A DNA stretch of 64,000 nucleotides, taken from positions 1 to 64,000 of the forward strand of contig CANHGK010000007.1 in assembly GCA_947460235.1 (NCBI GenBank). Direction: 5' to 3'. Shown one piece after another: positions 1,682-33,655 of the stretch. The notes below the pieces were generated by a model, which was not told the origin of the DNA, made no database searches, and saw only the letters and a program-made list of their open reading frames with translations. Made by a program: the position numbers and the translations under genes. The stretch is from Paenibacillaceae bacterium. Its GTDB lineage: Bacteria; Bacillota; Bacilli; Paenibacillales; CANHGK01. Numbering within the stretch: the first letter of the stretch is position 1; each line of letters starts with the position of its first letter.

Positions 1682-2479
1682 ATGAACGAATCGACATTAT
1701 CCAATCGACTGCAAGCTGTGCTCAAGTTGGTGCCGACGGGTTTTGTATTTGTTGATATCGGAACGGACCATGCATATTTGCCGATAGCAGCAATTTTGTC
1801 GGGCATTGCGAGCCGAGTCATTGCTGGTGATGTTCGCAACGGGCCGTGGCAAGTGGCAAAACAACATATTGAACAAGCCGGTGTGGAACATTTGATTGAA
1901 GTTCGACTCGGGGACGGATTGGACGTTGTACAAGCTGGCGAAGTCGATGCCGTGACGATTTGCGGGATGGGTGGTCCGCTTATTCGGGATATTTTACAAC
2001 AAGGCTATAATTCGGGGAAATTACAGGGCGTGAAACGATTAATTTTGCAACCGAATATCGGAGAGTTAACGGTTCGTCGCTGGCTTCGGGAAAATGCTTT
2101 TGTGATCATCCATGAAGAATGGGTCGAAGAAGACGGATATGTATATCCGATATTATGTGCAGAACCAACCGAAAATCAGTTTGGTGGCGAGTCTGCATTA
2201 GATAATCAATTAATTATTTGTCCGGACGGATGTACGCAGGAATTGCGCGATGCAATTGCTGATGTTGAATGGCAGGATCGTCTTGGGTGGTTAAATTTAC
2301 TACGTCCGTCGCGTGGATGGTGGGTCAAATGGAGCCGTGAATGGAATAAAGGGGAAGCAATAATCCGTTCTTTGCATAATGCACAATCGGACGAATCGAA
2401 GGAACGACTCATCCGACTTGAATTTGAACAATTGATTTTGGGTGAGGTGCTGCTGCGATGGAAAACGCTGACCGAATAG
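1682..2479 (+). CDS. trmK: tRNA (adenine(22)-N1)-methyltransferase TrmK
   Basis: This SAM-dependent methyltransferase modifies N1 of adenine 22 in tRNA. The N-terminal Rossmann part (residues 1-150) shows the SAM motif FVDIGTDHAYLPI, the acidic turn after AGDV, and the catalytic-loop region AVTICGMGGPLI. A helical C-terminal segment, typical of TrmK, follows from about residue 170. The 265-aa length is slightly above the B. subtilis protein. The ATG has the ribosome binding site GTAGAGGAGG. The gene lies between sigA and a Nif3 family gene, the order conserved in many Bacilli, and its end overlaps the next gene by 22 bases, suggesting translational coupling. Confidence 0.92.
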   Translation: MNESTLSNRLQAVLKLVPTGFVFVDIGTDHAYLPIAAILSGIASRVIAGDVRNGPWQVAKQHIEQAGVEHLIEVRLGDGLDVVQAGEVDAVTICGMGGPLIRDILQQGYNSGKLQGVKRLILQPNIGELTVRRWLRENAFVIIHEEWVEEDGYVYPILCAEPTENQFGGESALDNQLIICPDGCTQELRDAIADVEWQDRLGWLNLLRPSRGWWVKWSREWNKGEAIIRSLHNAQSDESKERLIRLEFEQLILGEVLLRWKTLTE

Positions 2480-3579
2480 CTAAGTGGGTCGAAAAACTTG
2501 CTCCGAAACAACTCGCCATCGGTGAAGATCCGATTGGGTGGCAGATCGGTGACCCTTCAGAGCAGATCAACCACGTGTTAGTTGCGCTTGAATTAACGAC
2601 TAAAGTGATCGATTATGCAATAAACATTGGTGCAAAGATGATTGTTACGCATCATCCGGTGTTTTTCCGTCCAATGAAATCACTTCGAACAGACCAACCA
2701 AAAGGTCGTCTTATTCAACGTTGTATCCAAGATGGAATTTGCGTGTATTCGGCGCACACGAATTTGGACGTTGCACGAGGCGGCTTAAATGATTGGCTCG
2801 CGGAGTCGATTGGTCTTGAACAAGTCAAACATTTTTCACAGACGCGATTTGATCAGCATCTGAAATTGGTCGTGTATGTTCCTGCGGAAGCAGAAGAACT
2901 CGTCACCTCAGCGATGTTTGGAGCTGGCGCTGGTTGGATTGGCGAATATAGCCATTGTAGTTTCCGGCAATCAGGCACAGGTACCTTTCAACCACAGGTG
3001 GGTTCGAATCCCTACATAGGTAAGGTAGGCGAAGTAGAATCGGTCAATGAAATCCGCATCGAAACGATCGTCCCTAGCGCACAAAAGGATCGCGTCATCC
3101 AAGCGATGATCGCCGCACACCCTTACGAAGAAGTTGCATATGATGTATTTCAATTGGAAGGCATCGGACAGCCGCAATCAATCGGCCGAATCGGTTTTCT
3201 TCCAATGCCAATAACGCTTGAACAATTTACGCAGCAACTAAAAACGACGTTTGCATTGAAGGGAATACGATTTGTTGGTGATGCCAATCGCTTGATCAAG
3301 AAGGTTGCGATTATCGGCGGTGCGGCGAGAAGTTATTGGCCATCGGCGCAACAAGCTGGCGCGGATGTATTTATTACTGGAGATATCGATTATCATACCG
3401 CCGTTGATGCACTTGAAGCAGGCATGTCACTCATTGACCCAGGTCATCATGTGGAATCAATCATGCAACAACAGCTAACCAATTGGCTAATACAATGTGC
3501 CGATCAACAGGGCGGAGATGCTCCAAACGTGATGATATCTGCATATCCAAATGACAATAATCCGTTCCAATTCGTTTAA
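2458..3579 (+). CDS. Nif3-like dinuclear metal center protein (YqfO type)
   Basis: This belongs to the Nif3 / GTP cyclohydrolase I type 2 homologue family (DUF34), with a dinuclear metal site and no firmly assigned in vivo reaction. At 373 aa it is the long form: two Nif3 halves flanking an inserted CutA/PII-like domain (about residues 130-235, including VNEIRIETIVPSAQKDRVIQAM and HPYEEVAYDV). Metal-binding residues are visible in MIVTHHPVFF near residue 65, in SAHTNLD, and in the C-terminal DPGHHVES. The start overlaps the 3' end of trmK, with GAGGTG ahead of the ATG. The trmK-Nif3 pair is widely conserved in Bacilli. Confidence 0.9.
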   Translation: MENADRIAKWVEKLAPKQLAIGEDPIGWQIGDPSEQINHVLVALELTTKVIDYAINIGAKMIVTHHPVFFRPMKSLRTDQPKGRLIQRCIQDGICVYSAHTNLDVARGGLNDWLAESIGLEQVKHFSQTRFDQHLKLVVYVPAEAEELVTSAMFGAGAGWIGEYSHCSFRQSGTGTFQPQVGSNPYIGKVGEVESVNEIRIETIVPSAQKDRVIQAMIAAHPYEEVAYDVFQLEGIGQPQSIGRIGFLPMPITLEQFTQQLKTTFALKGIRFVGDANRLIKKVAIIGGAARSYWPSAQQAGADVFITGDIDYHTAVDALEAGMSLIDPGHHVESIMQQQLTNWLIQCADQQGGDAPNVMISAYPNDNNPFQFV

Positions 3580-3583
3580 TCAG

Positions 3584-3612
3584 TTGATGAATCGAGTTTC
3601 ATTTGATATACT
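3584..3612 (+). promoter_or_regulatory. SigA-type promoter of rnpB
   Basis: TTGATG and TATACT are separated by exactly 17 bases. The predicted start lies about 7-10 bases downstream, just before the first helix of the RNase P RNA. Confidence 0.75.
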
Positions 3613-3621
3613 GCAGTTCGG

Positions 3622-4054
3622 TTAAAAAGTTTGACAGACAATCGCTGGTCGTGTGGGAGACTGCACAACGAGAGGAAAGTCCGGGCTCCACAAGGCAGGG
3701 TGCTGGATAACATCCAGTCAGCGCGAGTTGAAGGAAAGTGCCACAGAAATGGACCGCCGATGATCCGGTTTGTACCGGATACAGGCAAGGGTGGAACCGG
3801 GGTGTAAGAGACCCCGAAGCAAACTGGCGACTGTTTGCTTGGTAAACCCCATCTGGAGCAAGACCAAAGGTAACGCCGGTTCGGCCTCACGGTGCGGACA
3901 ATCCTAGCCTGGGATGCGTTGGGTAGGTCGCTGGAGCGCGTCAGTAATGGCGGGCCTAGATAGATGATTGTCGCTTCAATCTGTGGGAGGAAGCTTTCGC
4001 GCGACCGTAATACCACAGGAAGATACAGAACCCGGCTTATGGCAAACTTTTTGA
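3622..4054 (+). ncRNA. rnpB: RNase P RNA, bacterial class A architecture
   Basis: This is the catalytic RNA of RNase P, which matures the 5' ends of tRNAs. Hallmarks are GAGGAAAGTCCGGGCTCC near the 5' end, GCCGATG plus AGGCAAGGGTG in the specificity domain, GGTAAACCCC, GGCCTAGATAGATGATTGTC, and ACAGAACCCGGCTTAT near the 3' end. P1 is AAAAAGTTTG (3624-3633) pairing with CAAACTTTTT (4043-4052). P2 is GACAATC pairing with GATTGTC. The segment order follows the E. coli (class A) molecule through P11-P14 and P6/P16/P17 rather than Bacillus class B. An additional CTGTGG...CCACAG helix near the 3' end looks like P19. Ends are approximate. The 160-aa antisense ORF here is an artefact. Confidence 0.96.
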
Positions 4055-4099
4055 CCAACTTACATATATTCCGATCACACGAGAATTGGAGTGAGACTG

Positions 4100-4540
4100 A
4101 TGAGTAATGCCGTTCAAAATTACAAAAACCATCGTCGTATGGAACCAGCTACGTATTATATTTTATTACCGCTTAACTTAGTGGTACTTGCTGGAATCGT
4201 TACGGCATGGATCAGTTATGCTGACCTTCGGATTACCTTATGGGAAGCGCTTCTTGCTTCAAGTGCTGGAATCGCATTGTTCACCGTGTCGATGAAAGCA
4301 AGATCTTTTGCGATTATTGCTCAGGACAGAGCGATACGGGCAGAGGAAACGTTGCGTTATTTCATTTTGACGGGTCAGCGCCTGCCCAATGGCTTAAGTA
4401 ACGCACAAATCATTGCACTGCGTTTTGCGTCCGATGAAGAAGTGGTGTCACTCGTGAAACGAGCAGTGAATGAGTCGTTAACGGCGAATCAAATTAAGCA
4501 AGCGATCCAGACGTGGCGTGCAGATACCCACCGCGTCTAG
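4100..4540 (+). CDS. DUF6526-like small membrane protein
   Basis: This is a 146-aa protein of unknown function. It opens with QNYKNHRRMEPATYY, resembling the N-terminal signature of DUF6526 proteins. Two hydrophobic segments follow (about residues 22-42, YILLPLNLVVLAGIVTAWI, and 48-68, LWEALLASSAGIALF), then a soluble helical tail with RAIRAEETLRYFILTGQRLP. It should sit in the cytoplasmic membrane with most of its mass in the cytoplasm. The track begins at GTG 4091, but ATG 4100 is better because GGAG lies 8 bases upstream of it and overlaps the GTG. It lies alone between rnpB and a terminator. Confidence 0.75.
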   Translation: MSNAVQNYKNHRRMEPATYYILLPLNLVVLAGIVTAWISYADLRITLWEALLASSAGIALFTVSMKARSFAIIAQDRAIRAEETLRYFILTGQRLPNGLSNAQIIALRFASDEEVVSLVKRAVNESLTANQIKQAIQTWRADTHRV

Positions 4541-6030: not shown

Positions 6031-6201
6031 GAAATCCCTCCGTTGATCAATTAAAGTAGCTATCGGAGAGTATGCCGCAATCCACTCAAAATCATGCCAT
6101 AAAAATTTGTTCACATCAAAATTGACTGTACCTGTTTGTTTTTTGATGTGATAGAATTAAACGTATGTAGCAGCTGTTCATCTTTGGAAGGGGGACTTAA
6201 C

Positions 6202-6705
6202 ATGGCAAACGCAGTTAACGCATTAAGTGAGAAGACATACCAAAAATTGAAAGAGGTCGTCAGCAAACTCGAGCAGTTTTTGAACCATCACACCTTATCC
6301 CAATTAAACCCGGGTCAAGATGAATCATTACAGGAATTTTATCGCGGGTATCTCGCGGATATGCGTCATTTAATTGTCCAATCCGAAGTTGTATATGAAA
6401 AAATCGGTTTGCAATTACGTCGTCCTCAGTTTAGTGAGGAAGCTACCGAGAAGGCATTGTTTGAAGCATATCATCAATGCGTAAATGGATTTTACTATCC
6501 GAAACATGAATGCTACTCCGAAGATGGACGTTATGCATACACGGGACAGGATTCTATCCGGTTTCGCAAAATGCCAGTTCGAGCGTTGCGCGAAGTAACG
6601 GTTGAATTATCGAAAGTGTTTGAAGTGATGCGTGAAGAATTGGCATTTTATGAATCAGATTATGCGACGCAGCGTCGTATGCAAGGTGAAAAAGTTAGTC
6701 ATTAA
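6202..6705 (+). CDS. YpuI family protein (DUF3907)
   Basis: This is a cytoplasmic protein of unknown function matching B. subtilis YpuI. Recognisable family features are the central YHQCVNGFYYPK, the DGRYAYTGQDSIRFRKMP block, and the C-terminal REELAFYESDYATQ. It is all-helical, with no signal peptide or membrane segment. The track starts at 6136, but the ATG at 6202 has a good ribosome binding site (GGAAGGGGG), giving 167 aa, close to the family length. The family is largely restricted to Bacilli, which helps place the organism. It stands alone before a strong terminator. Confidence 0.87.
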   Translation: MANAVNALSEKTYQKLKEVVSKLEQFLNHHTLSQLNPGQDESLQEFYRGYLADMRHLIVQSEVVYEKIGLQLRRPQFSEEATEKALFEAYHQCVNGFYYPKHECYSEDGRYAYTGQDSIRFRKMPVRALREVTVELSKVFEVMREELAFYESDYATQRRMQGEKVSH

Positions 6706-8821: not shown

Positions 8822-8857
8822 TGTCTTTGCGTTACCGATTGAAAGGGGATGTTGGCC

Positions 8858-11800
8858 ATGTTTCAAACCTTCACAAACAAGCGTCAAATTCAAATCGGAG
8901 TGTATTTAGCGATCGTTGTATGTATACTTTTCTATTTGTCATTGTTACCGCAAACGGTGCATGCCGGTGCTGCGGCACTGCGCTCGGAAACGATTGCCCA
9001 GCCGAATGGGGATAAATTCAAGGCGAGTACATATGGAGACGAATGGGTAAACTGGACAACTACTCAAACCGGAGATGTCGTCATTAAAAATACGGATGGA
9101 TATTGGAATTACGGAAAAGTGGTTGGAGATGAATTAAAACCCAGTTCGAAACGTTTTGATCCAGATACGGCGAATGTCAAAATTAAACCATACAGTTTTT
9201 CATTGAAACAAGCAGATGCGGCGGGCTTTGCAAAAAGTGCTTGGGCATCAAAAGCGGCGGCAAGAAGCGCGATGGCAGGTCCTTCCAAAGCTACCTCATC
9301 TAACTCCTCCACCACTTCTTCAGAGGTAGTAAGCGCAGGGGCAAGTACGCCATTTTTAGGGAATGTCAAAATGTTGACGATTTTAGTTGAATTTAATGAC
9401 GCAAAAATTAAAAATACGGATGCGACATGGAACGCAAAAATGTTCTCCTCAACTGGGAATAGCGTTCGTAATTACTATAATGAAACTTCAAATGGTAAGT
9501 TAATTTTGATGCCTGCTGAAGAAACAAACGGCATTTCAAATGATGGGATTGTAAAAGTTTGGATCAAGACGAACCATCCAAATCCAACTTCGACTGGCGC
9601 AATCAATCAACAAATTGTAAAAGATGCATTAACGTTGGCGGATCAATATGTGAATTTTTCTTCGTTTGATACGAACCACGATGGGACGCTAACGAATAAT
9701 GAACTAGATCTGGTTACGATTGTCGCTGGATATGAAATGTCCTACGATTCGTCGACGCCGCATGTTTGGGCGCACAAATGGTCTTTATATGGCAGTACAT
9801 TAGCGCAATATGATGGAGTTTATGTTGCAGGTAATGATACGAATTCAAGTTATGCTCAATTTGGCGAGTTTCATGGATTGGTTAATACGGCATCCATTGG
9901 GGTCATTTGTCATGAGTTGGGTCATACGCTGGGGTTGCCGGATTTGTATGATACGACTGGGAAATCTGCCGGGATTGGCATTAGTAGTATTATGGCTTAT
10001 GGTAGTTGGAATACGATTCCGGGCGGTCAATTAGGAGATACGCCGGATCATTTTGATGCGTGGTCCAAACAACAATTGGGTTTTGTGACACCGGAAGTTA
10101 TCGCGACTTCTGTGAATCAAACGTATACGTTGAAATCAATTAGCACCGGCCAATACAATGCCATTCGGATTAATACATCCTTACCTTATGAATATTTCTT
10201 ATTAGAGAATCGTCAATTCGAAAAATATGATCGGAGTCTAAATCCGCGCGTAGACAAAGGCGGTATTGCAATCTGGCATATTGATGAATCGAAGTCTGGA
10301 AATCAGACCGTTACACAAAAACTCGTGGATTTGATGGAAGCAAATGAAGGAATCATCGGATACAGTGAAAATGATACAAGTCAGGCGTATTCACCGTCGA
10401 GACCTTATTATTCCGTTGGAAATGTGACCGATGCGAATCAAACTTCCAAGCCGAACACGAATTTTAATTCAAATTACCCATCTGGGTTATCAATTTCTGT
10501 AAAAAGCGCTCCATCGCCTTCCATGGATGTACTTATTAATTATAAAATTAATGATTTATCACCACCATCGCAACCAATGGATTTAATTGCAAGTGCGAAT
10601 GGTGCAACTGGTGTTACTTTGAGTTGGTCTCCTTCTTATGATAATTATGGTGTAACAGGGTACAGTATATTCCAAGACTTAAGTCCGATTGGCACCAGTT
10701 CAACAAGTTCATTCTCACTATCTGGTTTGACACCTGGTCAAAGTTATTCATTTAGTGTTCAAGGTTATGATGCAGCTGGAAATAAATCTCCGATGTCAAC
10801 ATCGGTTTCGATCACACTGCAAGTCGTGTCATCACCACCGCTGTTAATTTACTATAAATCGTCATTTACAGGTGCGCCATATATGCATTACCGTCTTACT
10901 GGCGGAACGTGGACGACCACTCCGGGGATATTAATGAATGGATCAGATGTAAGTGGTTATTCCAGTCTAATGATTGATCCAATGACAGCACCATCGATCG
11001 AGGCAGCATTTACGAATGGTGATGGTGTGACGTGGGATAATAAAGGTGGAACTAACTATATTATTCCTGTTGGGAGTGCTGCTGTAACGATTGAAAACAA
11101 TCAAATGAAAATCGGAAAACCGGTTATTGTTACTACTGTGATTGATACATCAGCACCGACAGTTCCGACAACAATTGTTTCATTAGCAAAAACGGATACA
11201 ACCGTAAATTTGAGTTGGACAGCATCTACAGATGATATTGGCGTTACCGGTTATGAAATTTCTCGCAATGGTGTGAAAGTCGGAAATAGTACAGCGACAA
11301 CGTATAATGACGCCGGATTAATTGCGAATACGTCTTACGGTTATACGGTTCGAGCGTTCGATGCATCGGGAAATTATTCTGCGGCGAGTACTGCACTTTC
11401 TGTGATTACGAATCCAAAGATCGTGACGACTGTCAATTCAGTTACGGTTTATTACAAACGCACAATCACGACAGGTACACAATACATTCACTGGAGACCC
11501 GTTGGTGGAACATGGACAACAGCACCTGGACTTGCAATGTCAGTTGCAGAAGTGAATGGTTATGCAAAAGCGACACTTTCAATCGGTACTGCAACATCTA
11601 TTGAAGCAGCATTTAATATCAATGGGAGTTGGGATAGTAAAGGTGGGTTAAATTATTCAATTCCTATGGGGATTCAGACGGTCGAAGGTGGAATTGTTAA
11701 AGCAGGCGCACCAGCAGGCGTTACAATCGATTCCATCGCACCAACGGTTCCAACGAATGTAACATCTCCGTCGAAAACCACTACATCGGTTGGATTAAGT

Positions 11801-14068
11801 TGGACAGTATCCACGGATAATCTTGGTGTAACAGGTTATAACATATTGCGCAATGGGACGAAAGTGGGCACATCGACAACCGCTTCGTATACCGATACCG
11901 CTTTACTCGCGAATACGGCCTATAGTTATACAATTGTAGCCTTTGATGCAGCGAACAACTTATCTTCAGCAAGTACGCCGTTGATTGTTACAACAAATCC
12001 TGCAACACCGGTCATTAATAATACCTTAACGATATATTACAAACGCATAGTGACAACGGGAAATCAATACATGCACTGGCATCCAGTTGGTGGGGCATGG
12101 ACGACGGCTCCTGGACTTGCGATGACTCCGGCAGAAGTGGCAGGATATGCAAAATCTACGGTTTCCATCGGAAGTGCAACATCAATCGAGGCTGCATTTA
12201 CCGTTAATGGTTCTACATGGGACAACAAAGGTGGGTCTAACTATTTCATTTCAATGGGGACACAAACCGTAGAAAACGGTGTAGTCAAATCGGGCGTTCC
12301 TGTAGTAGTCATTGCGGATACAACGGCTCCAAGTATCCCTTCGAATGTGACATCACCATCAAAAACGGATACTACGGTTGGATTGAGTTGGAATGCATCG
12401 ACAGATAATATTGCAGTCACAGGGTACAATGTATTGCGCAATGGAACGAAAGTTGGAACAACGGTAACGACCGCGTATTCCGATAATGGATTAGTTGCAA
12501 ACACAGCTTATAGTTACACGATTCAAGCATTTGATGCAGCAAATAACTTATCTTCAGCAAGTATGCCGTTGACTGTTACAACGAATCTTGCAACACCGGT
12601 CATTAATAATTCGCTTACAATTTACTATAAACAATCAATATCAACAGGAAATCAATACATGCACTGGCATCCAGTTGGTGGGACATGGACGACGGCTCCT
12701 GGACTTGCGATGACACCCGCAGAAGTGGCAGGTTATGCAAAAACTACGGTTTCAATCGGAAGTGCAACGTCAATCGAAGCCGCATTTACAAAGGATGGGA
12801 AAGTTTGGGATAATAAAAACGGTGCGAATTATTTGATTCCAATGGGAATACAGACGATCGATAATGGTTTGATCAAAATAGGTGTACCTACATCAGTTAT
12901 TGCAGACACGGTTGCACCAAGTATCCCTTCTAATGTGACATCACCATCAAAAACGGATACTACGGTTGGATTGAGTTGGAATGCATCGACAGATAATATT
13001 GGTGTAACGGGTTACAACATATTGCGCAATGGAACGAAAATTGGAACAACGGTAACGACCGCGTATTCCGATAATGGATTAGTTGCAAACACAGCTTATA
13101 GTTACACGATTCAAGCATTTGATGCATCGAACAATGCGTCATTAGCAAGCGCGGCCATTAGCATAACGACGAATCCATCGACTCCTGTCACCAATAACAC
13201 AATCACCATTTACTACAAACGCACTGGATTAAGTGGTACGCAATATTTGCACTGGCGTCCAACAGGAGGGAACTGGACGGTAGCCCCGGGGCTTGCAATG
13301 ACTGCTTCTGACGTTTCCGGTTACGACAAAGTGACGATCTCAATTGGAGCGGCAACTACAATTGAAGCTGCATTCAATTGTAATGGTGTTTGGGATAATA
13401 AAGGTGGGCCAAATTATACGATTCCAATGGGTACTCAAACAGTCGAGAATAGTGCAATAAAAACTGGTGCGCCTACGGTGACTGTTACCCCGACAGATAC
13501 GACTGCTCCAAGCATACCGGTGAATTTGATTTCTCAATCTAAAACGGACAAATCGGTGCAATTGGTTTGGACTGCTTCGACTGATAATATAGGGGTTGTT
13601 GGTTATGAGATATATCGAAGTGGCACAAAAATTGGAACATCATCAACAACGTCGTACTCTGATAGTGGTCTGACGGCAAATACAGCGTATAGCTACACGG
13701 TAAAAGCTTATGATGCTGCGGCGAACTATTCGGCGACCAGTTCGGCACTGAGTGTGACGACGAATCCGGTAATTGCAGCGGTGAACACGGTCACGGTATA
13801 TTACAAACGCAAAGTGGCAACGGGCACGCAAAACATCCATTACCGTCCGATTGGCGGAACTTGGACGGCTGCACCTGGTGTTCCAATGACGAATGATTTG
13901 AATGGATTTGCAAAAATCACAGTTACAATTGGTTCAGCTTCTGGGATTGAAGCTGCTTTTAACGCAAGCAATACAAATTGGGATTCAAATAATAACATGA
14001 ACTACAAAACGGGTACTGGTGACTGGACGATTGATAACGGGGTTTTAAAAGCCGGAAAGCCGTATTAA
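8858..14068 (+). CDS. Secreted M6-family metalloprotease with six FN3-CBM25 units
   Basis: This is a giant exoenzyme of 1736 aa. A signal peptide covers about residues 1-33 (GVYLAIVVCILFYLSLLP...VHA). The peptidase domain, of the immune inhibitor A (M6) type, covers about 170-560. It has the zinc motif HELGHTLGLPDLYD at about 352 and a calcium-loop-like DTNHDGTLTNNEL near 270. From about residue 567 the chain is six alternating pairs of a fibronectin type III domain and a CBM25 starch-binding domain (YYKR...HWRPVGGTWT...GLAM...IEAAFN...WDNKGG.NY). No sortase motif or SLH domain is seen at the C terminus. ATG 8858 is preferred over ATG 8849, which touches the AAAGGGG ribosome binding site. Cleavage of starch-associated proteins is inferred from the architecture. 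Confidence 0.93.
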   Translation: MFQTFTNKRQIQIGVYLAIVVCILFYLSLLPQTVHAGAAALRSETIAQPNGDKFKASTYGDEWVNWTTTQTGDVVIKNTDGYWNYGKVVGDELKPSSKRFDPDTANVKIKPYSFSLKQADAAGFAKSAWASKAAARSAMAGPSKATSSNSSTTSSEVVSAGASTPFLGNVKMLTILVEFNDAKIKNTDATWNAKMFSSTGNSVRNYYNETSNGKLILMPAEETNGISNDGIVKVWIKTNHPNPTSTGAINQQIVKDALTLADQYVNFSSFDTNHDGTLTNNELDLVTIVAGYEMSYDSSTPHVWAHKWSLYGSTLAQYDGVYVAGNDTNSSYAQFGEFHGLVNTASIGVICHELGHTLGLPDLYDTTGKSAGIGISSIMAYGSWNTIPGGQLGDTPDHFDAWSKQQLGFVTPEVIATSVNQTYTLKSISTGQYNAIRINTSLPYEYFLLENRQFEKYDRSLNPRVDKGGIAIWHIDESKSGNQTVTQKLVDLMEANEGIIGYSENDTSQAYSPSRPYYSVGNVTDANQTSKPNTNFNSNYPSGLSISVKSAPSPSMDVLINYKINDLSPPSQPMDLIASANGATGVTLSWSPSYDNYGVTGYSIFQDLSPIGTSSTSSFSLSGLTPGQSYSFSVQGYDAAGNKSPMSTSVSITLQVVSSPPLLIYYKSSFTGAPYMHYRLTGGTWTTTPGILMNGSDVSGYSSLMIDPMTAPSIEAAFTNGDGVTWDNKGGTNYIIPVGSAAVTIENNQMKIGKPVIVTTVIDTSAPTVPTTIVSLAKTDTTVNLSWTASTDDIGVTGYEISRNGVKVGNSTATTYNDAGLIANTSYGYTVRAFDASGNYSAASTALSVITNPKIVTTVNSVTVYYKRTITTGTQYIHWRPVGGTWTTAPGLAMSVAEVNGYAKATLSIGTATSIEAAFNINGSWDSKGGLNYSIPMGIQTVEGGIVKAGAPAGVTIDSIAPTVPTNVTSPSKTTTSVGLSWTVSTDNLGVTGYNILRNGTKVGTSTTASYTDTALLANTAYSYTIVAFDAANNLSSASTPLIVTTNPATPVINNTLTIYYKRIVTTGNQYMHWHPVGGAWTTAPGLAMTPAEVAGYAKSTVSIGSATSIEAAFTVNGSTWDNKGGSNYFISMGTQTVENGVVKSGVPVVVIADTTAPSIPSNVTSPSKTDTTVGLSWNASTDNIAVTGYNVLRNGTKVGTTVTTAYSDNGLVANTAYSYTIQAFDAANNLSSASMPLTVTTNLATPVINNSLTIYYKQSISTGNQYMHWHPVGGTWTTAPGLAMTPAEVAGYAKTTVSIGSATSIEAAFTKDGKVWDNKNGANYLIPMGIQTIDNGLIKIGVPTSVIADTVAPSIPSNVTSPSKTDTTVGLSWNASTDNIGVTGYNILRNGTKIGTTVTTAYSDNGLVANTAYSYTIQAFDASNNASLASAAISITTNPSTPVTNNTITIYYKRTGLSGTQYLHWRPTGGNWTVAPGLAMTASDVSGYDKVTISIGAATTIEAAFNCNGVWDNKGGPNYTIPMGTQTVENSAIKTGAPTVTVTPTDTTAPSIPVNLISQSKTDKSVQLVWTASTDNIGVVGYEIYRSGTKIGTSSTTSYSDSGLTANTAYSYTVKAYDAAANYSATSSALSVTTNPVIAAVNTVTVYYKRKVATGTQNIHYRPIGGTWTAAPGVPMTNDLNGFAKITVTIGSASGIEAAFNASNTNWDSNNNMNYKTGTGDWTIDNGVLKAGKPY
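12005..13180 (+). repeat. Tandem 588-bp FN3-CBM25 repeat units inside the M6 protease gene
   Basis: Two adjacent units (about 12005-12592 and 12593-13180) match over long stretches of DNA, for example AATCAATACATGCACTGGCA and the FN3 segment starting AAGTATCCCTTC (12331 and 12919). The 588-bp period equals 196 codons. The high DNA identity points to a recent in-frame duplication. The other four units are more diverged. Confidence 0.85.
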
Positions 14069-30898: not shown

Positions 30899-30922
30899 AA
30901 ATGAAAATCAAATCAATTTTTG

Positions 30923-31015
30923 TCACTAGGGGAGCTATAGAATAGCTGAGACTGGACGTCGTCGTCCTAAACCCTTCGAACCTGATCTGGGTGATTCCAG
31001 CGGAGGGAAGTGCTT
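30923..31015 (+). promoter_or_regulatory. TPP riboswitch (THI element)
   Basis: This is a thiamine pyrophosphate sensor in the leader RNA. The conserved core is clear: CTAGGGGAGC, GCTGAGACTGG, ACCCTTCGAACCTGATCTGGGT, CCAGCGGAGGGAAGTG. A terminator hairpin follows 20 bases later and precedes the ribosome binding site of the transporter genes, so control is probably by premature termination when TPP is abundant. Confidence 0.97.
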
Positions 31016-31035
31016 ACTCGTAATCAATTACGATC

Positions 31036-31084: not shown

Positions 31085-31873
31085 ATGGCTTTAGTTTCAA
31101 TGAAAGATGTATCTTTTGCATTTTCTGATCAATTGCCAGTCATGGAAAAATTGTCGATAGACATTCAAGAAGGTGAAGTTGTCGCTTTAGTTGGTCCAAG
31201 TGGTAGCGGGAAAAGTACCTTGTTTCGAATACTGAGCGGATTGCTCGAATCGGATTCTGGTCATGTCTTTTGGAATGATCAGGTAAAAAATGCAGCGGAA
31301 CGTCTTGGGAATGTAAGTTATGTACCACAGCAACCACAATTGTTGCCATGGCGGAACACCGCAGAAAATGCTTCGATATCGCTTGAAATTGCAGGAATGA
31401 GCCGCAAAAAAGCAGTTCAAACCGTGTTGCCTCTTTTGCAACGATTTGGATTACACGATTTTGCGAATGCACTTCCGCCGCAATTATCTGGAGGAATGCG
31501 TCAGCGCGTATCTTTAATGCGTGCGATGTTACATCCGGCGCCGCTACTGTTGATGGATGAGCCATTTAGCGCGCTCGATTCGTTAACGAGAATGGACATG
31601 CATGATTGGCTACTCGAACTTTGGGAAACCGAGGCGCGTACCGTTTTATTAATTACACATGATATCGATGAGGCGATATTACTTGCGGATCGAATTTTGC
31701 TTGTTGCGGAAATTCCGATGAGGACATTGATTGAGATACCTGTTCCTTTTAAGCGTCCTAGGCGTTCTTCGATCGAATGGACCGAACCGTTCATGCAGCT
31801 TAAGAGAGACATCCTTGCACATCTTGGGCACCGCGTAGAACTTGCTCGAAGTACTGCGGAGGTGCAGCTATGA
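31085..31873 (+). CDS. thiZ: ABC transporter ATPase, thiamine-precursor uptake (ThiZ type)
   Basis: This is a 262-aa cytoplasmic ATPase subunit of an importer. It has Walker A GPSGSGKST, the Q loop in YVPQQPQLLPWR, signature LSGGMRQRVSLMRA, Walker B LLLMDEPFSALD and switch region ITHDIDEA. It resembles the nitrate/taurine/pyrimidine-precursor subclass. The TPP riboswitch directly upstream, plus NMT1-like binding protein and permease genes downstream, identify it as the ATPase of a thiamine-precursor (HMP or formylaminopyrimidine) importer. The ATG has GGAGGTGGG, and the stop overlaps the next start (ATGA). Confidence 0.9.
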   Translation: MALVSMKDVSFAFSDQLPVMEKLSIDIQEGEVVALVGPSGSGKSTLFRILSGLLESDSGHVFWNDQVKNAAERLGNVSYVPQQPQLLPWRNTAENASISLEIAGMSRKKAVQTVLPLLQRFGLHDFANALPPQLSGGMRQRVSLMRAMLHPAPLLLMDEPFSALDSLTRMDMHDWLLELWETEARTVLLITHDIDEAILLADRILLVAEIPMRTLIEIPVPFKRPRRSSIEWTEPFMQLKRDILAHLGHRVELARSTAEVQL

Positions 31874-32640
31874 TGCTAATCTGGAGACGGTATGGATTAT
31901 CAATTTTGTTTTTTTTATTAATGATCATGGGTTGGCAAGTTTCGGTTACAACGCTTAAAGTTCCGTTTTACATTTTGCCTTCACCGCTACGGATCATGGA
32001 AGCACTAATCGAAAAGTGGTCGATATTTCCTCGTCATATCGGAATGACGTTACTTGAAACGTTGCTTGGTTTGGGTATTGCAATCGGACTAGGAATCCTA
32101 TTTGCTGTATGGATTCATTTTTCGTCATTCATATCCAAAGTGTTATTTCCGCTCTTGATTGCGAGTCAAGCAATTCCGCTAATTACGATTTCACCGGTTC
32201 TCAATGTGTGGTTTGGGTACTCGATTTGGAGTAAAGTGACCATAGTTGTCATTTGGACCTTTTTTCCGATTACGGTGACATTGGTGCAAGGACTTCGGTC
32301 GGTTGATCCTGCGCTATTGGATGTCCTGCGTACGATGCGGGCGACGAGATGGCAATTATTTCGAATGGTGGAATGGCCATCGTCTTTGCCAAGTTTATTT
32401 GCGGGTCTCAAAATGGCTGCACTCTTCAGTGTTGTTGGGGCGACAGTTGGCGAATGGCTCGGTTCGGAATATGGGCTCGGTGTTTTGACGCGCCGCGCGT
32501 CGAGTTCGATGCAAACTGATTTATTATTTGCAGGTTCATTTGTGTTGATGGCATTAGGCTTACTATTGTTTTTAGGTGTCAAATGGTGGGAACATCATGT
32601 TTTATTTTGGAAAAAATCAGATCAGAATCTAAAGGAGTAA
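31870..32640 (+). CDS. thiX: ABC transporter permease, thiamine-precursor uptake (ThiX type)
   Basis: This is a 256-aa integral membrane subunit with about six hydrophobic helices. It carries the EAA-like loop that contacts the ATPase, visible in LLDVLRTMRATRWQLFRMVEWPSSLPSLFAGL. Its N-terminal text (VPFYILPSPLRIMEAL) is typical of the SsuC/TauC/ThiX permease subclass. It overlaps the ATPase gene by 4 bases and is followed by the binding-protein gene after one base, behind an AAAGGAG. Co-regulation through the upstream TPP riboswitch supports thiamine-precursor transport. The precise substrate is not decided by sequence. Confidence 0.9.
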   Translation: MMLIWRRYGLSILFFLLMIMGWQVSVTTLKVPFYILPSPLRIMEALIEKWSIFPRHIGMTLLETLLGLGIAIGLGILFAVWIHFSSFISKVLFPLLIASQAIPLITISPVLNVWFGYSIWSKVTIVVIWTFFPITVTLVQGLRSVDPALLDVLRTMRATRWQLFRMVEWPSSLPSLFAGLKMAALFSVVGATVGEWLGSEYGLGVLTRRASSSMQTDLLFAGSFVLMALGLLLFLGVKWWEHHVLFWKKSDQNLKE

Positions 32641-32641
32641 T

Positions 32642-33655
32642 ATGAATATGAGTGGATGGATGAAAAAACTGGCGGCAGGTGTCGTAGCAATCTTGATGCT
32701 TGGAGTAACGGCATGTTCACAAACACCTGCAACAACATTAACAAAAGAAGATAAACCGTTACAACCATTTACCGTGATGTTGGATTGGTACCCGAATTCG
32801 GTACACACATTTTTATATGTTGCTAAAGAAAAAGGATATTTTAAGGAAGCAGGACTTGATGTCACATTGCAACCACCTTCCGATGCAAATGACCCGGTTA
32901 AATTGGTTGCAGCGGGTCAAGCAGATGTCGCTCTAAGTTATATGCGCCAAGTTGTGATTTCACGTGCACAGCAAATTCCAGTTGTATCGCTTGCAGCGAT
33001 CGTTCGTCATCCGCTAAATCAGTTGATGGTTCGTGCAGATGTGGGTGTGAATTCGCCAAAAGATTTGGTTGGAAAAACGATCGGGTATGCGTCAAGCGAT
33101 TTAGATGTTTCACTTGTGAAAACCATGATTACAAGCGATGGTGGTGATCCTGAAGCTGTAAAGTTTGTCGATGTCGGATACGACCTTATTCCAGCGATGT
33201 TAACCAAGAAAGTGGATGGGATTATCGGCGGATATATCAATCATGAAAAATTATTAATTGAAAAATCAGGAATGGCGTTAAAAACATTTTCGCCGAGTGC
33301 ATATGCTGCGCCAAATCAATATGAATTAGTGCTAATTACTGGAGAGAAAACGGTCAAAGAAAAAGAATCACAAATCAGAGCCTTTTGGGCTGCTTGCCAA
33401 AAAGCGCAAGCAGAAGTTACCGCTGATCCAGACAAGGCACTACAAACATTGCTAACCGCACAAATGAAAGAATTCCCACTAGATGAGTCTGTCGAAAAAC
33501 AAGGATTACAAATGTTACTACCGATGATGAATGGAGAAAATGTAACTTTCGGCGCTCAAGAAGAGTCTGAATGGAAAACGTTAATTGACTGGATGGTTGC
33601 AAACAAACACATCGAAGCACCAATCAAAGCATCCGATATGTTTCGAAACTTGTGA
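32642..33655 (+). CDS. thiY: Substrate-binding lipoprotein of the thiamine-precursor transporter (ThiY type)
   Basis: This is a 337-aa extracytoplasmic binding protein of the NMT1/THI5 family, which binds HMP or formylaminopyrimidine. A lipoprotein signal occupies about residues 1-25, with the probable lipidated Cys in MLGVTACSQ. Family text includes VMLDWYPNSVHTFLYVAKEKGYFKEAGLDV, followed by the pyrimidine-site region QADVALSYMRQVV. A nearby second ATG (32648) is an alternative start. It is the last gene of the riboswitch-controlled operon. No tenA or thiM gene is beside it, so salvage after uptake must rely on genes elsewhere. Confidence 0.92.
   Translation: MNMSGWMKKLAAGVVAILMLGVTACSQTPATTLTKEDKPLQPFTVMLDWYPNSVHTFLYVAKEKGYFKEAGLDVTLQPPSDANDPVKLVAAGQADVALSYMRQVVISRAQQIPVVSLAAIVRHPLNQLMVRADVGVNSPKDLVGKTIGYASSDLDVSLVKTMITSDGGDPEAVKFVDVGYDLIPAMLTKKVDGIIGGYINHEKLLIEKSGMALKTFSPSAYAAPNQYELVLITGEKTVKEKESQIRAFWAACQKAQAEVTADPDKALQTLLTAQMKEFPLDESVEKQGLQMLLPMMNGENVTFGAQEESEWKTLIDWMVANKHIEAPIKASDMFRNL

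Follow-up and report, generated by a model that had tools for sequence, protein, structure and literature searches.

The rnpB gene of the window (the whole stretch of 64,000 nucleotides analysed here) is, with high probability, an ancestral class A RNase P RNA gene that was inherited vertically at the old trmK–nif3 site, class B being the derived form that replaced class A separately in several lineages of Bacilli. In addition, genomes carrying both classes were found in the family Tumebacillaceae and once outside Bacilli, and these look like intermediates of such a replacement.

The class A rnpB gene of the window

RNase P RNA and the RnpA protein mature the 5' ends of tRNAs. A cmscan search identified a class A RNase P RNA (RF00010) at positions 3626–4054 of the forward strand with a score of 262.6 bits (E = 1.7e-84), the gathering cut-off of the model being 100 bits. 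The match covered positions 1–367 of the RNaseP_bact_a model completely, including both ends, with no truncation. No other RNase P family was reported at this position under relaxed thresholds, lower-scoring matches of the same clan being suppressed, and the class B model (RF00011) gave no match at E <= 0.001 in the window genome. The gene is present in a single copy in the assembly (2.72 Mb, 99.2% complete), and class A was the only class over its cut-off in this genome.

A pattern check of the sequence showed that conserved regions I, IV and V are intact. Based on the sequence and the model alignment, conserved region I (GAGGAAAGTCC) is located at 3672–3682 and conserved region V (ACAGAACCCGGCTTA), which is the 3' strand of P4, at 4025–4039, both on the forward strand. 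Compared with RF00010, the window gene shares the full-length match, all conserved regions and the aligned class A elements; it differs in lineage-level detail alone, namely a slightly extended P19 helix (CUGUGG/CCACAG). Class B RNAs (RF00011, the Bacillus subtilis type) have the same function and catalytic core as class A, but their helix set is different and their genes elsewhere are often located in tRNA/rRNA operons. As a class A rnpB, the window feature is normal, and it is new only as a further member.

The added helix is formed by CTGTGG (3981–3986) and CCACAG (4013–4018) and lies between conserved region IV/P2 and conserved region V, which is the P19 position. Together with a CTTC/GAAG pairing, it makes up a stem-loop at 3974–4022 of the forward strand with a segment fold of -15.5 kcal/mol. 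A homologous GUGG/CCAC helix was found in all 23 Paenibacillales sequences checked, and across the order the stem showed a few compensated changes, mostly in its outer part. Since P19 is present in class A and class B alike (Table 3, PMC2858038), it is no class marker.

A consensus scan revealed a candidate sigma-70-type promoter (TTGATG-17-TATACT with an extended -10 TG) at 3584–3612 of the forward strand, the second hexamer of which ends 14 nt upstream of where the model match begins; the scan found 2 such sites against 1.2 expected and is weak evidence on its own. The RNA is predicted to be the catalytic subunit of RNase P and, together with RnpA, would cleave the 5' leaders off precursor tRNAs.

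Upstream of rnpB, on the same strand, the window contains the syntenic neighbours sigA (rpoD, primary sigma factor; 495–1619; Pfam sigma-70 regions 1.1 to 4) and trmK (yqfN, tRNA m1A22 methyltransferase; 1682–2479; PF04816, 5.6e-52). They are followed by nif3/DUF34 (yqfO; 2458–3579; PF01784, 1.2e-78), which precedes class A rnpB in class A lineages and whose nearest named relatives belong to Paenibacillus species. Downstream of rnpB lies a DUF6526 gene (ORF 4091–4540), and ORF 6136–6705 was attributed to DUF3907.

The earlier note had proposed a class A RNA with a P19-like helix in a genome of Bacilli. Scoring with both Rfam models, which it had suggested as a check, upheld the class, the helix was located at the P19 position and conserved in the order, and the organism belongs to the order Paenibacillales, within Bacilli. 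A YtpI homologue that it had placed nearby was not confirmed, ORF 4091–4540 being the DUF6526 gene.

Two other features of the window were recorded. A TPP riboswitch (30918–31025, 76.5 bits) is located upstream of an apparent ABC transporter operon (31085–33655). A predicted secreted protein of 1739 aa (gene position 8849–14068) has a motif, HELGH, resembling that of zinc proteases, and its C-terminal half includes several similar repeats.

Distribution of the two classes in Bacilli

Class A RNA scored over the cut-off in all 41 Paenibacillales genomes sampled (25 genera, 12 families), and thus class A in the window genome is the norm of its order. Among 151 Bacilli genomes sampled, 55 passed the class A cut-off and 97 passed the class B cut-off.

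The arrangement of nif3 followed by class A rnpB was found in five Paenibacillus records, in Chengkuizengella, in Tumebacillus and in Sporomusa (Negativicutes, outside Bacilli). Besides the window, class A rnpB was located just downstream of nif3 in all 20 relatives from the order that were examined. The distance between the two genes was within 70–350 bp in families f18, f28, f32, f41, f42 and f50, and the link was looser in f17, f23 and f26. No full adjacent nif3 was found in the few kb fetched for the class A families f16, f30, f34, f35 and f43, so the nif3 site is not universal. The site downstream of trmK–nif3 would be older as an rnpB location than the split between Bacilli and Negativicutes. 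In the class A sequence tree, the window gene groups with Paenibacillales, and the shared old site together with this matching tree favours retention.

An RpoB tree built from 63 genomes places the class B bearers of Bacilli in five separate clades interspersed with class A lineages, which corresponds to at least 5 changes. A tree in which all class B bearers were forced into one clade was rejected (delta lnL 216.7, p-AU 2e-12), this species tree being that of one gene with some weak forks.

Under the opposite history, class B would have been present in an ancestor of Paenibacillales and class A reacquired by horizontal transfer. This would fit the high frequency of class B elsewhere in Bacilli (the 97 of 151 genomes mentioned above). 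It would also fit the mobility of rnpB, a second class B copy in one genome (G133, see below) being grouped with the class B of another family. However, class A lies behind nif3 alike in Paenibacillales, other class A families and Sporomusa, and a regain would require insertion at this same ancestral site. In addition, the order stays together in the class A tree, and the class B clades are surrounded by class A lineages in the RpoB tree. We consider a regain very improbable. The reading of the earlier note was thus borne out in part. Beyond the class, the taxon and the P19 helix, its suggestion that the ancestral class had been kept agrees with the nif3 site shared as far as Sporomusa and with the class A tree; its view of class A as unusual for the lineage conflicts with the counts above, and its other suggestion, a regained class, conflicts with the same syntenic site in Sporomusa and other class A lineages.

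Class B rnpB was often located in or beside tRNA arrays or right behind 5S or 23S rRNA genes in many families (loci L285, L287, L288, L290, L291, L165, L168 and L169). It lies behind 5S rRNA in f24 and within a tRNA array behind 23S in f46, and it adjoins tRNA genes in f13, f22, f29, f31 and f38. Three f38 genomes (G072, G169 and G180; L163–L169) contain 2–3 class B copies each that fall into two sequence groups and resemble the outcome of an old duplication. In the f33 genome G133, a second class B copy (L171, G133:C12:235459-235856) groups with the clade of Tumebacillaceae, f24 and f39, which points to horizontal transfer and suggests a horizontally placed copy, such transfer confusing the class history. 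Carriage of the class B gene by plasmids or phages was unsupported, as the search against their sequences gave partial matches alone with 60–80% identity; the sole class B match over 80% of the query was a Geobacillus plasmid record. Class A on phages was likewise dismissed, with weak partial matches only.

Genomes with both classes and a probable loss of class A

Six of the seven genomes of Tumebacillaceae (f47) contained both class A and class B RNA at different loci (G139, G149, G159, G181, G182 and G183; L153–L162). They represent six species of two genera, and one of them, G149, is Tumebacillus permanentifrigoris DSM 18773 (rnpB at 79500–79900 of G149:C15, NZ_QGGL01000015.1, 141,342 bp). 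The class A RNAs scored 300–306 bits and the class B RNAs 261–298 bits, both over the cut-offs. Within one genome the two RNAs were 62–65% identical; among five species of the family, the pairwise identity was 89–97% for class A and 82–93% for class B.

The class A gene of the dual carriers, both in Tumebacillaceae and in the genome G293 described below, is a homologue of the window gene; in Tumebacillaceae it occupies the same old nif3 locus. Unlike the window genome, the dual carriers have a second rnpB of class B. The class B gene lies 14–36 nt from a tRNA gene in G139, G149, G159 and G170. In G149 it is located behind the 3' end of 23S and tRNAs, and in G181 it is 238 nt before the 16S gene. 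One rnpA was found per Tumebacillaceae genome with a match, and none was found in G159, a 95% complete draft.

Two readings of the class B genes were rejected. The variant of conserved region IV in genus g102 of Tumebacillaceae (AGTCAAATGG) is not a mark of a decaying gene, as the same or similar variants occur in f38, f24 and others. The short class B match in G182 is not a deletion, as the sequence runs into masked N beside rRNA.

Contamination or mis-binning of the assemblies could also produce genomes with both classes, and the estimated contamination of the dual Tumebacillaceae genomes was 2–6%. However, class A and class B lie together on one single-contig chromosome in G181 and again in G182, and both classes recur in six species of two genera. 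The class A copies are at the ancestral site, and the class B copies agree with one another and follow the species tree. Such an artefact is scarcely credible, and we regard the dual possession as genuine.

The class B RNAs of Tumebacillaceae group with those of f24, f39 and f46, which are the neighbours of the family in the RpoB tree and have class B only. Class B was therefore probably in the line before these families diverged, and the two classes must have lasted together for some time in the Tumebacillaceae line. After the split, class A was probably kept in Tumebacillaceae alone.

The genome G170, from the genus of G139, G149 and G159, contained class B (275.8 bits), and the class A model matched nowhere in the genome. 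Its nif3 locus (L219, G170:C8) is intact, gap-free and collinear with that of G149 (L162), except that positions 9422–9910 are skipped, about 490 bp comprising class A rnpB with the region upstream of it. The locus keeps the gene before the missing stretch and, after it, the terminator and the next gene. Since the dual relatives hold the ancestral arrangement, the simplest reading of this alignment is that class A was deleted in G170, which would then be an end point of class replacement.

Outside Bacilli, the complete genome G293 (3.31 Mb) contained class A (305 bits) and class B (191 bits) RNAs (L308, L309). Its class B gene is located 19 nt before tRNA-Met, likewise in two relatives with class B only. 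Taken together, the dual genomes and G170 look like intermediates and the end point of class replacement.

Possible course of class replacement

Type A and type B RNAs have been reported to be interchangeable at the level of RNA and protein (review, PMC2858038), so a cell could operate the two with a single RnpA and afterwards dispense with either one. Replacement may start when a class B gene arises or arrives, typically lodged in rRNA/tRNA operons. Class A and class B would then coexist, as seen in Tumebacillaceae and G293, and class A would later be deleted, as in one Tumebacillaceae genome. For lineages without intermediates, the order of events is one that we infer. Where the class B gene lies about 20 nt before a tRNA, its 3' end may be freed by RNase P cleavage of that tRNA.

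It appears rather likely that lineage does not fix the class of RNase P RNA in Bacillota, and that class B genes of rRNA/tRNA operons displaced class A several times in Bacilli through dual intermediates surviving today (Tumebacillaceae and, as a separate case outside Bacilli, G293), G170 representing a completed loss. The dual species would share one RnpA, and class A, in its own unit, and class B, with rRNA/tRNA genes, may differ in expression. A different course, tenable though somewhat improbable, is that class B arose once early, persisted beside class A over a long period and was then sorted among lineages by differential loss, with no repeated arrival. The fit of one model to all class B RNAs, the many class B genes in tRNA/rRNA operons across families and the grouping of the Tumebacillaceae class B with its RpoB neighbours f24, f39 and f46 are consistent with a single origin. 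However, it would need dual possession along many deep branches, and dual genomes were found in two families only; in addition, at least one class B copy was likely placed horizontally (G133). These alternatives concern the wider history, and the window gene is a retained class A gene either way.

In the literature searched, no report of dual type A/type B carriers was found, nor any paper combining Tumebacillus with RNase P, nor anything relevant on Paenibacillus, rnpB and RNase P. Extant lineages with both classes, and a genome in which the loss of class A is complete, thus seem to be unreported there, most subscription journals being outside the search and an earlier notice being possible.

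The window gene corrects the shorthand that Bacilli have class B, as entire orders of Bacilli rely on class A. The dual-class lineages and the completed loss of class A merit a dedicated study; in particular, the dual-class Tumebacillus is culturable and makes the exchange of an essential ribozyme for a structurally different one directly testable.
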